Shown here: positions 3,401 to 22,305 of the stretch, piece after piece | Position numbering within the stretch: position 1 is the first letter of the stretch | Layout: each line of letters starts with the position of its first letter | Assembly (NCBI GenBank): GCA_038746285.1 | Contig: JBCDKT010000005.1 | Span: 1-64,000, forward strand | DNA from: Bacteroidota bacterium | Lineage (GTDB): Bacteria > Bacteroidota > Rhodothermia > Rhodothermales > JANQRZ01 | Direction: 5' to 3' | Length of the DNA: 64,000 nucleotides | Program-made: the position numbers and the translations under genes | Notes under the pieces: model-generated | What the model was told of the DNA's origin: nothing | The model's input: only the letters and a program-made list of their open reading frames with translations | Databases searched by the model: none

Positions 3401-3981
3401 ACCTCCGCAGCACGAACCGCCTCGCGACGGGCCTGGAGCGGCGGCGCATCCAGCTCGTCGAGGCCGAGGCGCGGGCCGTCCTCTTCGGGCCGCTCAGCGG
3501 CGAGCTGCGCGGCGCGGCCGAGCGCAACGCGTCCGGCAGCCCCTTCGCCTCGCGCCGGTTCGACATCCGGGGCGTCGAGGTCGAGCCGGAGGCGACGTGG
3601 CGGTTCGGGCAGGCCGTCTCCCTCTCGGCCGGCGTGCGCTACGCCCGCAACCGCGACGCCGAAGCAAGCGCTTCGGGCGACGACCTCACGGCTCGCATCC
3701 TCGTCCTTCCCCTGCGCGCCCGCTTCGCCGTCGCGGGCCGGCTCCAACTCCTGCTCCAGGGCGAGCGCGCCGACGTCCGCCTCGATGGGGACGCGACCGC
3801 CGGGCAGGCCGCATTCGAACTCACCGAGCGCCGGGGCGACGGCACCTCGTACCTGTGGAGCGCGAGCGGGCAGTACACCCTCAACCGCTTCCTGCGGGCG
3901 GGCCTGAACTACGAGGGCCGCGCGCCGAGCGAGGCCCCCGTCGTCCACAACGTCCGCGTCCAACTCAGCGCCGTGTTCTGA
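433..3981 (+). CDS. Large outer-membrane beta-barrel protein of unknown function
   Basis: 1182 residues. The start gives a clean signal peptide (MPRRLFLLLALLAGAPALAQ, cleavage after about residue 20). The middle (about 285-335) carries a segment reading GPYRLVGREGEQFIIV, then GSERVYLDG and DYVIDYATGEVTFTPR. I recall this pattern from very large cell-surface proteins of Bacteroidota and Gemmatimonadota, including SprA-like ones. Around residue 860 there is an EF-hand-like calcium loop (DANGDGVQQLDEF). From about residue 550 on, alternating polar/hydrophobic strands dominate, and the chain ends in ...LSAVF; a terminal Phe is typical of outer-membrane barrels. I infer an outer-membrane barrel with a periplasmic or extracellular N-terminal part. 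It is about half the length of SprA, so I do not call it the type IX translocon. It stands alone and converges on the PIN toxin gene 12 bp away. Confidence 0.75.
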   Translation: MPRRLFLLLALLAGAPALAQVPDGDLRGGDLGAFRDTLDLRQPLALRPFVLPGSLTLRLDGIALDTTQYALDTRTGRLLLRLDPRPKVSSTLVAVYRTLPLAAFDGPIARRRIGETDTLGRRRVVEAERAEADEPLFGAPPRLRRRGSISRGIVAGNRRDVSIESGLRMELSGEVADGVEVQAVLTDENTPIQPEGTTQRLSDFDRVYVQLDTRRGQARLGDIDLAFTGTEFAPYVRKLQGAAVTANAPALFSGTLAGATATVAGATARGLFQSQDILALEGVQGPYRLVGREGEQFIIVIAGSERVYLDGQLLTRGEASDYVIDYATGEVTFTPRRLVTAERRITVDFEYTTSEFTRTVVGTEAEARLWARADGTERLRIRGTLLRESDGAAFADELGLTEADLDLIGASGLGPAVRSGAEPVPFDPESPFVLYARQDTVFAGQTVSIFVPATAEADSVFRVRFSRVEVGAGDYRRAGRAVNGILYEWVGPGAGDYVPLRLLPKPTLQQVLDLQVSAEPVAGLELFGEIARSTNDANRLDVAGGAGGSAGYGGLRLRPTPLRFGSLDAGTLSAEVVGRLRGETFQPLSRIRPVEFNRTWNVAQAGAGFTGIDTLAESTAEGVVRWASGEATHLQVEAGQIEIGDLFDGQRGGLDAAFRRERWPGLSYRLDVVDSENGFAGEEGRWLRQLGRLDYRLLGDRLVPFVEVEQERRDQRALGTDSLVVEALAFAEVRPGLGWTSSTLTAAASVEWRDEEQPLAGAFADAATVTTVQTDLRYRPSATYTTEAQVAYRLRNATEAFEETGFGDNESLVLRWTNRWTPLARAVELNTVYEAQTERSPVLQEIYLLVGPELGEFVWEDANGDGVQQLDEFREEITPLEGQYARTFVPGDDLIPTIGVQGRLRLRLDPARLFGDDASGWQRALARVSSLTTLDVQEKSEEPDLARVYLLNPGVLQDEATTLGGRFRIGQEFAFFRGDPRWSGRLFGQHLRSTNRLATGLERRRIQLVEAEARAVLFGPLSGELRGAAERNASGSPFASRRFDIRGVEVEPEATWRFGQAVSLSAGVRYARNRDAEASASGDDLTARILVLPLRARFAVAGRLQLLLQGERADVRLDGDATAGQAAFELTERRGDGTSYLWSASGQYTLNRFLRAGLNYEGRAPSEAPVVHNVRVQLSAVF

Positions 3982-3993
3982 GCGCGGCCGGGG

Positions 3994-18981: not shown

Positions 18982-18995
18982 CCTCCCCAGATGCT

Positions 18996-19703
18996 AAGTC
19001 GCCCGGCGAGTTCCGCCGCTCGCAGGTGTGGCTCGGCGGGCGGTGCCCGAGCCAGGCGACGTTCGTACCACCTCCGCCCGGTGAGGTGATGGGACGTCTC
19101 AATCCGTTCGGGCACTTCTTCCACGACCCGGACTACCCCGTACTGCTGAAAGCGGGCCTCGCGCATGTTCAGTTCGAGACGATCTACCCCTTCCTCGACG
19201 GCAACGGGCGCGTCGGGCCGCTGCTTATCACCTTGCTGCTACGCGAGCAAGACGTGCTGACAGAGCCGGTACTCTACCTCAGCCTCTACTTCAAGACGAG
19301 CCGGCAGGCGTACTACGATCACCTCCAGCGCGTCCGCACTGAAGGCGACTGGGAAGGCTGGCTCTGGTACTTTCTCAGGGGCATCCGGGACACGGCCCGC
19401 GAAGCCCTCCAGACGGCGCAGGAGGCGCTCGCTCTCTTCGACGCAGACCGAGGCAAAATCGAGGTTCTTGGGCGCGGTGCGGCGTCAGCACGCGCCGTCT
19501 TCGAGATGCTTCAGCGGCATCCCCTCACGACGATTCCCGCTGCGACCGAGCGGCTCGATTTGAGCTACCCGACGGTGCGGGACGCGCTCGGGCGCCTCGA
19601 AGGGGTCGGCATCGTGAAGGAGGTGACGGGCGAGGACCGGGGCCGACTCTACGTGTATGATCATTACCTGCGTCTCCTGGGCAAAGACACCGAGCCGCTC
19701 TAG
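18996..19703 (+). pseudogene. Headless and active-site-mutated Fic family gene
   Basis: The frame immediately after tRNA-Phe translates to a Fic protein from its middle onwards: KSPGEFRRSQVWLGG, FVPPPP, LAHVQFETIYPFLDGNGRV, then LYLSLYFKTSRQAYYDHL, EGDWEGWLWYFLRG and a C-terminal winged-helix segment (LSYPTVRDALGRLE). Relatives of about 370 residues carry roughly 110-130 more residues at the N-terminus; here those are gone and the frame runs back into the tRNA. The catalytic motif HPFxDGNGRxGR reads YPFLDGNGRVGP, losing the catalytic His and the last Arg. An AMPylation activity is therefore unlikely. An internal ATG at 19089 could in principle start a short product. I call it a decaying gene cut at the tRNA 3' boundary. 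Confidence 0.8.
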
Positions 19704-19704
19704 C

Positions 19705-19742
19705 CCACGCGGGCGAAGCCGAGGCTTTCGGAAGCGGTGCGG
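19705..19742. repeat. Duplicated 3' end of recG
   Basis: About 38 bp here match the 3' end of recG at 20219-20256. The core ACGCGGGCGAAGCCGAGGC.. is identical over 22 nt, and the next 14 nt have three differences. Read on the minus strand it still encodes ESLGFARVG and a stop, like the true recG end KSLGFARVG. The two copies flank the GIY-YIG gene and its repeat segment. Confidence 0.8.
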
Positions 19743-19743
19743 A

Positions 19744-20040
19744 TCACGCAGTCATGGCGTCTGCAAGATCGACGAGGTTGGGGTTCTGCTGGCGGACGAG
19801 GTTCCATTTCCAGTCGCGGTGCCAATTCTTGAGCTGCTTCTCGCGCGCAACCGCGTCGTTCGCGTCTCGGAACGTCCCGACCCAGAGCAAATCCCGGACG
19901 CGGTAGCGTTTCGTGAAGCCCTCAACGCGCCCCGCCTTGTGCTCTGCTACCCGCCGCGTCAAGTCGTTCGTCATCCCGACGTAGAGGACCGTCCGCCGTC
20001 GGTTCGACAAGATGTAGACATAATAGCGATGCACTTTCAT
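19744..20040 (-). CDS. Small GIY-YIG nuclease family protein
   Basis: 98 residues, the usual length of stand-alone GIY-YIG proteins (UPF0213/URI-like). The motif is seen as YYVYIL (residues 6-11) and LYVGMTNDLTRR (19-30) with the candidate catalytic Arg at 29 or 30; the later glutamate is in VAREKQLKNW (E67). Such domains cut DNA with one metal ion; for these solo proteins the role is unsettled. The gene lies between two copies of the recG 3' end, starts 22 nt from a cluster of GTCATCC palindromes, and its stop codon begins 2 nt after the duplicated recG piece. This position suggests it arrived as a small mobile segment. Confidence 0.87.
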   Translation of the reverse strand: MKVHRYYVYILSNRRRTVLYVGMTNDLTRRVAEHKAGRVEGFTKRYRVRDLLWVGTFRDANDAVAREKQLKNWHRDWKWNLVRQQNPNLVDLADAMTA

Positions 20041-20062
20041 CAGTCCGTTTCTCTCTCCTTCA

Positions 20063-20158
20063 TGTCATCCCGAACTTGTTTCGGGATCTGAGGCTCATGC
20101 CATCCCTCACGAGACCCTGAAACGAGTTCAGGATGACAAGAGAGTGTTCAGGATGACA
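20063..20158. repeat. Cluster of GTCATCC/GGATGAC palindromes
   Basis: TGTCATCC at 20063-20070 is answered by GGATGACA at 20131-20138 and again at 20151-20158. Inside are two smaller hairpins: CCCGAA/TTCGGG (20069-20085) and CCTGAA/TTCAGG (20116-20132). This nested arrangement is typical of dispersed REP-like elements. It lies between the GIY-YIG start and the recG stop. Confidence 0.75.
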
Positions 20159-20214
20159 GGAGGGGGTAGAGTACTGTAATAGACGCCTTGGTCCACTCGG
20201 CGTAATCCGGCTAC

Positions 20215-22305
20215 TCACCCTACGCGGGCGAAGCCGAGGCTTTTGGGGGCGGTGCGGGCGAAGGCGCGGCGGGTCTCGACGTGCTCGGCCTGCCGGAGGT
20301 CGGGGTCGCGCTCGACGAGGGCGAAGGCGGCTTCGCGGGCAAGACTTAGTAGTTCGGCGTCGCGGACGACGTCGGCGAGTTTGAAGGCCGGGAGGCCGGA
20401 CTGGCGGGTGCCGAAGAAGTCGCCCGCGCCGCGGAGCTTGAGGTCGGTCTCGGAGATCACGAAGCCGTCGTCGGTGGCGAGCATGGCTTCGAGGCGCTCC
20501 TCAGCCTCGGCGGAGCGCTTGTAGTCGGCCATGAGGAGGCAGTAGCTCTGCTCCGCGCCCCGCCCGACGCGGCCCCGAAGTTGGTGGAGCTGCGAGAGCC
20601 CGAAGCGCTCGGCGTGCTCGATCACCATCACGGTCGCGTTCGAGACGTCGACGCCAACCTCGATCACGGTCGTGGCGACGAGGATGTCGGTCTCGCCCGA
20701 CTTGAAGCGGTCCATCGCCTCCTCCTTCTCGTAGGCGAACATCCGCCCGTGGACGAGGTCGACCCGGTAGGGCCGGAACCGCTCCTGAAGATTCTCGAAG
20801 CCGGTCTCTGCGTCTTTGAGGTCGAGCTTTTCCGACTCCTCGACGAGGGGGTAGACGACGTAGGCCTGCCGCCCGGACCGGAGCTGGTCCTTGATGAACG
20901 CGTAGGCTTCCTCGCGGCGCTTCTCGGTGTAGAGCTTGGTCTGGATCGGCTTGCGCCCGGCCGGCCGCTCGTCGATGACGGTCACGTCGAGGTCGCCGTA
21001 GACGGTCATCGCGAGCGAGCGGGGGATGGGCGTCGCGGTCATGAGGAGCATGTGCGGGCGGGAGCCTTTGCGGAACATCCGCGCGCGCTGCATCACCCCG
21101 AACCGGTGCTGCTCGTCGACGACAGCGAGGCCGAGGTTCTGGAACTCGACCGTCTCCTCGATGAGCGCGTGGGTCCCGACCGCGACCGCCGCGCGGCCTT
21201 TTTTCAGGTCGCCCAGGATCTCCTCGCGGAGCTTCTTCCGCTGCCCGCCGATGAGCAGCCGGACCTCGACCCCGAGCGGTTCGAGGTAGTCTTTGAGGTT
21301 GGCGTAGTGCTGCTCGGTGAGGATCTCGGTCGGGGCCATGAAGGCGCTCTGGAAGCCCGAGTCGAGCGCCTGCATCATCGCCGCGACGGCGACGACCGTC
21401 TTCCCGCTCCCGACGTCGCCCTGGACGAGGCGGTTCATCTGGGTCCCGCTCATCGTGTCGGCCGCGATGGCCTCGACGGCCCGCTGCTGCGCGCCCGTCA
21501 GCGTGAACGGCAGCACCTCGGTCACGAACTGCCGCGCGAACTCGCCGGGTGCACGGAAGGCTGGACCGGCGACCTCGGCGCGCTGTTCGCGCGTGAGGGC
21601 GAGGAGGAGCTGGAGGAAGAACAACTCCTCGAACTTCAACCGCCGCATCGCCCGGCCGAGCTCGCCCCGGTCCTTCGGAAAGTGGATCGCCCGGAGCGCG
21701 ACGTTGCCGGGGATGAGATCGTACTCCTCGCACACCCAGTCCGGCAAGACTTCGGGAATCTCGAGGCCGTGCTCCTTGATAAGGCCGTAGACGAGCCGCC
21801 GGAACGCCCGGCTGTTGAGGCCGACTTTTTCGAGCGCCGCGCCGCCGGGGTAGAGCGGGATGATGCGGCCCGTGTCGAGCGCCGCGCCCTCGTCGTCGAG
21901 CCGGTCGAAGTCAGGGTGGGCAAGGGAGAAGGTGCGGCCGTACTGCTCGGGCTTGCCGTGGAAGGCGAAGCGCCCGCCGGTCTCGAAGAGGCGCTGGATG
22001 TAGGTAGCGCCCCGGAACCAGACGCACTTGAGGGTGCCGCCGGAGGCGTCCTGGACGCGGAGTTCGAGCCGCCGCTTGCCGCCGCGCCCGGGGATCATCC
22101 CCTTCGCCTGGACGACCCCGACGACGGTCACCGGCTCGCCGGCCACGAGCTGGCGGATCGGGGTGACGGTCGAGCGGTCGAGGTAGCGCCGGGGGTAGGT
22201 GCGGAGGAGGTCGCGGAAGGTCTGGACGCCGGCCTTGCGCAACGGCTCGGCCCGCCGCTTCCCGACGCCCTGTAGTTCTTCGATGTCGGTGTCGAGGACG
22301 CTCAC
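20215..22305 (-). CDS. recG: ATP-dependent DNA helicase RecG
   Basis: 696 residues, full family length, with a GTG start that directly opens the conserved N-terminus (LDTDIEELQGVGKRRAEPL). It has the wedge/OB domain (VTVVGVVQAKG), Walker A (GDVGSGKTVVA, about residue 296), the DEQH box (VVDEQHRFGVMQR), MTATPIPRSLAMT, and C-terminal helicase motifs (VATTVIEVGVDVSNATVMVI, QLRGRVGRG). RecG remodels stalled forks and branch-migrates Holliday junctions. The last residues KSLGFARVG are duplicated 500 bp downstream. It is preceded by a strong terminator and appears monocistronic. Confidence 0.96.
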   Translation of the reverse strand: MSVLDTDIEELQGVGKRRAEPLRKAGVQTFRDLLRTYPRRYLDRSTVTPIRQLVAGEPVTVVGVVQAKGMIPGRGGKRRLELRVQDASGGTLKCVWFRGATYIQRLFETGGRFAFHGKPEQYGRTFSLAHPDFDRLDDEGAALDTGRIIPLYPGGAALEKVGLNSRAFRRLVYGLIKEHGLEIPEVLPDWVCEEYDLIPGNVALRAIHFPKDRGELGRAMRRLKFEELFFLQLLLALTREQRAEVAGPAFRAPGEFARQFVTEVLPFTLTGAQQRAVEAIAADTMSGTQMNRLVQGDVGSGKTVVAVAAMMQALDSGFQSAFMAPTEILTEQHYANLKDYLEPLGVEVRLLIGGQRKKLREEILGDLKKGRAAVAVGTHALIEETVEFQNLGLAVVDEQHRFGVMQRARMFRKGSRPHMLLMTATPIPRSLAMTVYGDLDVTVIDERPAGRKPIQTKLYTEKRREEAYAFIKDQLRSGRQAYVVYPLVEESEKLDLKDAETGFENLQERFRPYRVDLVHGRMFAYEKEEAMDRFKSGETDILVATTVIEVGVDVSNATVMVIEHAERFGLSQLHQLRGRVGRGAEQSYCLLMADYKRSAEAEERLEAMLATDDGFVISETDLKLRGAGDFFGTRQSGLPAFKLADVVRDAELLSLAREAAFALVERDPDLRQAEHVETRRAFARTAPKSLGFARVG

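Follow-up and report, generated by a model that had tools for sequence, protein, structure and literature searches.

The window, a 64,000-nucleotide stretch of a Bacteroidota genome (G000), carries recG on its minus strand (20215..22305), recognised by its open reading frame and its Pfam RecG/helicase domains and 93% identical to the recG of G001, the sole other genome marked as the same genus in our searches. Read along the minus strand, recG is followed by a palindromic, REP-like stretch without strand (about 20060..20165), which includes the hairpin TCCCGAACTTGTTTCGGGA (20068..20086, no strand), then by a gene for a 98-aa GIY-YIG nuclease (19744..20040, minus strand; PF01541, E=4e-17), and finally by the end of a convergent Fic gene (18996..19703, plus strand; PF02661), of which only the 3' part is present; the N-terminal part is missing here, and the gene is full-length, at 397 aa, in G001. 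The nearest solved sequences to the nuclease are UPF0213 BH0048 and UvrC, placing it, by sequence, in a known endonuclease fold.

A preliminary description of this DNA had reported that the nuclease gene is bracketed by a duplicated recG 3' end, with only that gene and palindromes in between, and both observations are borne out. Positions 19704-19742 and 20219-20257 form a direct repeat of 39 nt, 35/39 identical (90%) and in the same orientation, and the minus-strand translation of each copy is LGFARVG-stop, the stop being TAG in the far copy and TGA in recG. The near copy (copy 2; 20219..20257, minus strand) is the present end of recG and closes with RTAPKSLGFARVG-TGA; the far copy (copy 1; 19704..19742, minus strand) touches the Fic stop. 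The repeat lies well above chance: its local score is 58, whereas the reverse strand gives 27 and internal recG windows of the same genome give 37 and 31. Related sequences occur elsewhere in G000: a third copy of the recG tail lies on contig C6 (25956-25992; L009, about 3957-3993), and sequence related to the window palindromes is found on seven further contigs (C14, C18, C71, C2, C40, C30 and C38). The C6 copy adjoins a fragment of an HSDR_N restriction gene.

An empty site in the same genus

Which of the two recG ends is the original one? In G001, recG directly meets the full-length convergent Fic gene, the two stops overlap, and there is no insert at the junction; the single-ended empty site that the preliminary description had proposed to look for in a relative therefore exists. 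The G001 junction reads AGCCTCGGCTTCGCCCGCGTGGGCTAGAGCGGCTCGG, letter for letter the sequence of the window's far copy and Fic end, the far copy's GCCCGCGTGGGCTAGAGCGGCTCGG included, and window positions 18996-19742 align across the junction (C10:99993-100739) with 86% DNA identity. Because the G001 junction consists of the far copy and Fic, the native end of recG is the far copy, now displaced, and the near copy, the palindromes and the GIY-YIG gene are a 515-bp addition, in which GIY-YIG is the sole encoded domain. The GIY-YIG unit is present in the window and absent from G001 at the same recG-Fic junction: it was inserted at the recG 3' end, leaving recG with a complete end and moving the native end next to Fic. 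The two copies diverge from G001 in different places. On its 5' side the near copy resembles G001, from which it departs in the final bases (GTAGGGTGA vs GTGGGCTAG) and at one other site; the differences of the far copy lie on its 5' side. Such chimeric differences would be expected from the joining of two similar ends; mutation after the duplication would also fit.

The history of the region within the genus is more involved. In G002, of the same family, the genes immediately behind recG are those found beyond the insertions in G001. G001 itself encodes the nearest homologue of the window nuclease (80% identity), 3.9 kb downstream of recG; this gene is also directly followed by a copy of the recG tail, so that the junction between GIY-YIG gene and recG tail is common to G001 and the window. 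The C6 copy of G000 holds the position of this G001 copy, with the same downstream genes after both. Since the order of the GIY-YIG gene relative to Fic differs between the two genomes, more than one step is needed. A further rearrangement is visible at window positions 18983-18996, where a tRNA-Phe is joined to the Fic gene without its N-terminal part. In G001, tRNA-Phe and Fic lie 52 kb apart and in opposite orientation, which makes an inversion in the window lineage, with one end in Fic, likely, as judged from contigs that are not joined. Beside the Fic gene of G001 (L045, 7096-9172), a Type ISP C-terminal domain is split over two open reading frames, perhaps a decayed restriction system.

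Duplicated recG ends in other genomes

DNA downstream of recG was obtained for 52 of 60 relatives and searched with the last 60 nt of recG at a threshold score of at least 47; a recG search among named genomes gave only 6 loci. The recG end recurs downstream in 5/52 genomes (G000, G005, G012, G021 and G029). G001 scores 35, inside the control range (at most 33 on the reverse strand and at most 38 for internal windows, apart from G029). Among the remaining gene ends in these regions, 2/486 are repeated within 6 kb downstream at the same threshold, both belonging to recG's convergent neighbour (in G028 and G037), and away from the recG junction the count is 0/484. The excess of recG ends over other gene ends is significant by Fisher's test (p = 1.3e-4; 7e-6 without G028 and G037), both values being rough since the genomes and genes are related. 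Just below the threshold, the 3' end of a gene in G009 (L067, 9676-11752 counted from the recG end) recurs downstream with a score of 45.

What lies between the duplicated ends varies. The insert of G021 is a gene pair with a weak DUF3368 match, suspected to be a toxin-antitoxin pair; that of G012 consists of 114-bp units; and in G005 and G029 it is a TonB operon. Because G019, of the same genus as these last two, shares with both the DNA directly after recG, the TonB operon may have been next to recG all along in these two genomes, the far copy being the later arrival. The G012 units (L022/L070), which directly follow recG, combine a palindrome with a recG tail and contain no gene; they might be a non-autonomous form. 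In genus g4, five of seven genomes have inserted DNA (0.2-1.9 kb) at the recG stop, by comparison with G051 and G044. The DNA just after recG in this genus (L049-L055) encodes HNH_5 with IS1595, DUF2283 with or without DUF4258, or a PD40 protein. No GIY-YIG gene was seen in the recG-junction inserts of G005, G012, G021, G029 or genus g4, and the window protein has no match in G012, G005, G028 or G037, despite the duplications at their recG junctions. The preliminary description had held that the same duplication in relatives lacking the GIY-YIG gene would speak against its reading. Such duplications do exist, in G005, G012, G021 and G029; as they enclose different inserts and occur in other families, they do not undo the insertion in the window, and they mean that a recG end can become duplicated without GIY-YIG. 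These GIY-YIG-free inserts are the strongest evidence against crediting the nuclease alone.

They also raise the alternative that DNA of any kind tends to insert duplicatively at the recG 3' junction, a hotspot in which GIY-YIG would be one passenger. With the stops of recG and the convergent gene overlapping, both genes would stay intact, and the event would hence be seen, only where an insertion duplicates the junction. The contrast between 5/52 recG ends and 0/484 ends elsewhere fits this, as do the frequent inserts at the recG stop in genus g4, the duplicated neighbour ends of G028 and G037, and a range of cargo that extends from the DUF3368-like gene pair through HNH_5 with IS1595 and DUF2283 with DUF4258 to the PD40 protein. 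A hotspot at recG nevertheless leaves unexplained why GIY-YIG genes are bracketed at tRNA genes and other places, and why the type of nuclease tracks the tRNA isotype, both described below; we regard it as unlikely to be the explanation.

Classic site-specific integration, with the recG end as attB, the repeats as attL and attR, and an integrase since lost or acting in trans, appears more doubtful still. As in integrative elements of tyrosine recombinases, the window insert is bordered on either side by the same gene 3' end in direct orientation; in G000, G005, G012 and G021 the repeats measure 28-39 nt and terminate at the stop or close to it, and the chimeric differences, with a near copy that is native on its 5' side and a far copy that is native on its 3' side, are of the kind that att recombination would leave. 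Unlike those elements, the window locus has no tyrosine recombinase: there is no match to PF00589 in the insert, nor near recG in seven genomes, so that this reading stands without its enzyme. The other duplications are far longer or shifted (more than 190 bp in G029; about 150 bp in G028 and 36 bp in G037, both starting at the stop), and the tRNA-associated units encode GIY-YIG alone. The insertion that regenerates a gene end, as first described, is thus supported, and its likeness to att sites is not.

GIY-YIG genes between direct repeats across the phylum

A second GIY-YIG gene of G000, on contig C37, lies directly behind a tRNA-Pro, and 59 nt comprising the tRNA 3' end and terminator are duplicated on its far side at 90% identity. 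Close relatives in three other families also lie behind tRNA-Pro, in G059 as two tandem units; the G012 member of this type is truncated and has no repeat. The same-genus G001 has the tRNA-Pro without GIY-YIG, sharing the tRNA and the upstream side only, and a two-sided empty site for the C37 unit was not found. Across the phylum this subfamily has a match in 196/395 genomes, and we examined the best 30 loci of these 196 genomes, one per genome and not a random draw. Among these best loci, 26/30 have a bracketing direct repeat at a score of at least 50, with inverted controls at most 40 (the exceptions are L214, L216, L229 and L236), and 23/30 have a tRNA near the gene, 18 of them on the same strand at most 60 nt upstream and 5 others at most 80 nt downstream. 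Tandem arrays of up to 5 units, spaced roughly 300-450 bp, lie behind or before tRNA genes; in these arrays a neighbouring unit supplies part of the bracketing repeat. In sum, relatives of the nuclease are commonly flanked on both sides by direct repeats taken from the place of insertion, chiefly tRNA 3' parts. Among more distant GIY-YIG relatives (26 loci from the tRNA-type query and 4 from a family search), only 3/30 (L194, L201 and L130) have a bracketing repeat of at least 44, so the bracketed anatomy is not universal in the GIY-YIG family.

The far tRNA copies are altered in a consistent way. All 24 that pass the T-arm criterion keep the T-arm and lack an intact anticodon arm (24/24; one of them, L260, is a neighbouring tRNA-Pro, and the predicted tRNA-Cys it was scored against is an altered copy of this kind itself), and the anticodon arm is most often replaced by a TCCCG...CGGGA hairpin. 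This hairpin lies within 260 nt of the gene in 15/30 tRNA-type loci, against 4/156 control positions in the same loci and 1/1354 in the recG regions. We considered it as a hallmark of all types and rejected this; it occurs in only 4/21 window-type loci and is therefore not claimed for the recG type.

Nuclease sequence and tRNA isotype go together. On a nuclease tree of 45 sequences, 40 of them with a known isotype, which has few columns and many open forks, the isotype changes 12 times (11 isotypes, 40 rows), whereas in 300 shuffles it changed 24.3 times on average and never fewer than 20. In G285, the Pro, Ser and Asp units each group with the same isotype from another family. Within the tRNA subfamily, nuclease sequence thus predicts the isotype of the adjoining tRNA. 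We take this fit to mean that the nuclease picks its tRNA target; long vertical inheritance beside each tRNA would be an alternative source of it.

The window's own subfamily, the recG type, has a match in 46/114 genomes of the order. A direct repeat of at least 44 surrounds the gene in 14/29 loci, the window included, and an inverted one in 5; the other 15/29 have no strong direct repeat. The 72 control open reading frames gave 0 direct and 2 inverted repeats, these controls being few and drawn from other places than the phylum-wide loci. None of the 29 loci has a tRNA within 300 nt. Many of the bracketing repeats are REP-like, and in one case (L287, in G089) the repeat contains a protein-coding 3' end. 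At L143 (1961-2468), a REP-like repeat, TGTCATTGCGAGG..., stands in direct orientation on both sides of the GIY-YIG gene. That the palindromes themselves are mobile by REP-like transposition, with GIY-YIG genes riding along or mobilising them and the gene-end duplication as a by-product, accords with the REP-like flanks of many such genes and the related palindromes elsewhere in G000, but is highly improbable, given that the tRNA units are bounded by tRNA sequence and not by REP pairs and that G001 and the window share the junction between GIY-YIG gene and recG tail. The palindromes adjoin the nuclease gene as in RAYT/REPIN systems; the enzyme of those systems is an HUH protein, whereas the one here is GIY-YIG and a gene end is duplicated.

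A candidate homing unit and its parallels

We favour the reading, at a probability of roughly 60%, that the 515-bp unit is a small homing-type element that regenerates the gene end it enters and consists of palindromes, the GIY-YIG gene and a recG tail. The nuclease probably drives its movement, a view drawn mainly from its relatives. The 98-aa enzyme would cut at the end of its target gene, and repair from a copy bearing the element would insert the unit, the carried gene end leaving the host gene intact. Tandem arrays would then arise through recombination between the repeated ends. Taken jointly, the recG and tRNA loci tentatively suggest something broader: minimal mobile units, about 300-520 bp long, that belong to a single class throughout the phylum and each combine a ~90-aa GIY-YIG nuclease with a copy of the 3' end of its target. 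The nuclease would choose the target; the displaced copy would be altered, in the tRNA units by exchange of the anticodon arm for a palindrome, perhaps against cutting or against tRNA production; and through the repeated ends several units could accumulate in a tandem row next to a single tRNA gene. In the same way, recG would be a protein-gene target of the same kind, its specificity being read from two loci.

The closest parallel lies in fungal mitochondria. The available portion of PMC3630166 describes mORFs in Allomyces (atp6) and Glomus (atp6, atp9, cox2, nad3) in which the host C-terminus is duplicated, the native end is displaced and hybrid genes result; one Glomus case has a GIY-YIG enzyme. 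As in the mORFs described there (PMC3630166), the window has an endonuclease reading frame at the 3' end of a host gene, a duplicated end, and a displaced native end that matches a close relative, and by its sequence the recG case would class anatomically with them. The differences are that the present units lie in a bacterial chromosome, encode a 98-aa enzyme, target recG and tRNA genes, carry REP-like or tRNA-hairpin features and form tandem arrays. The gene end carried by a mORF is, in that portion of the source, foreign and yields a hybrid gene. At recG, the near copy departs from the G001 sequence at no more than its final bases and one other site, which leaves a foreign origin of this end conjectural. 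A second parallel is SegB, a free-standing GIY-YIG homing endonuclease of phages that, in the available part of PMC13096335, often lies close to tRNA genes and brings about tandem amplification by recombination. The units described here share with it the type of enzyme, the association with tRNA genes and the tandem arrangement; unlike the phage enzyme, for which that part of the source describes no such feature, they have a duplicated gene end with an altered anticodon arm. Among open-licence papers, to which our search was limited and which are no proof of absence, we found no report of such anatomy in bacterial chromosomes.

If the reading is correct, these units would be a very small self-regenerating mobile element of bacteria, using gene ends as safe harbours without intron, intein or integrase, and would offer a bacterial model for the gene-end replacement known from fungal mitochondria. 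They would also provide a ready set of natural pairs of target and nuclease, and would account for the frequency of small GIY-YIG genes beside tRNA genes in the phylum. Partial tRNA copies of another form occur as well: at L142 (2472-2657), the intact tRNA-Pro gene is preceded by two 93-nt tandem repeats (95%) that carry its 5' half.
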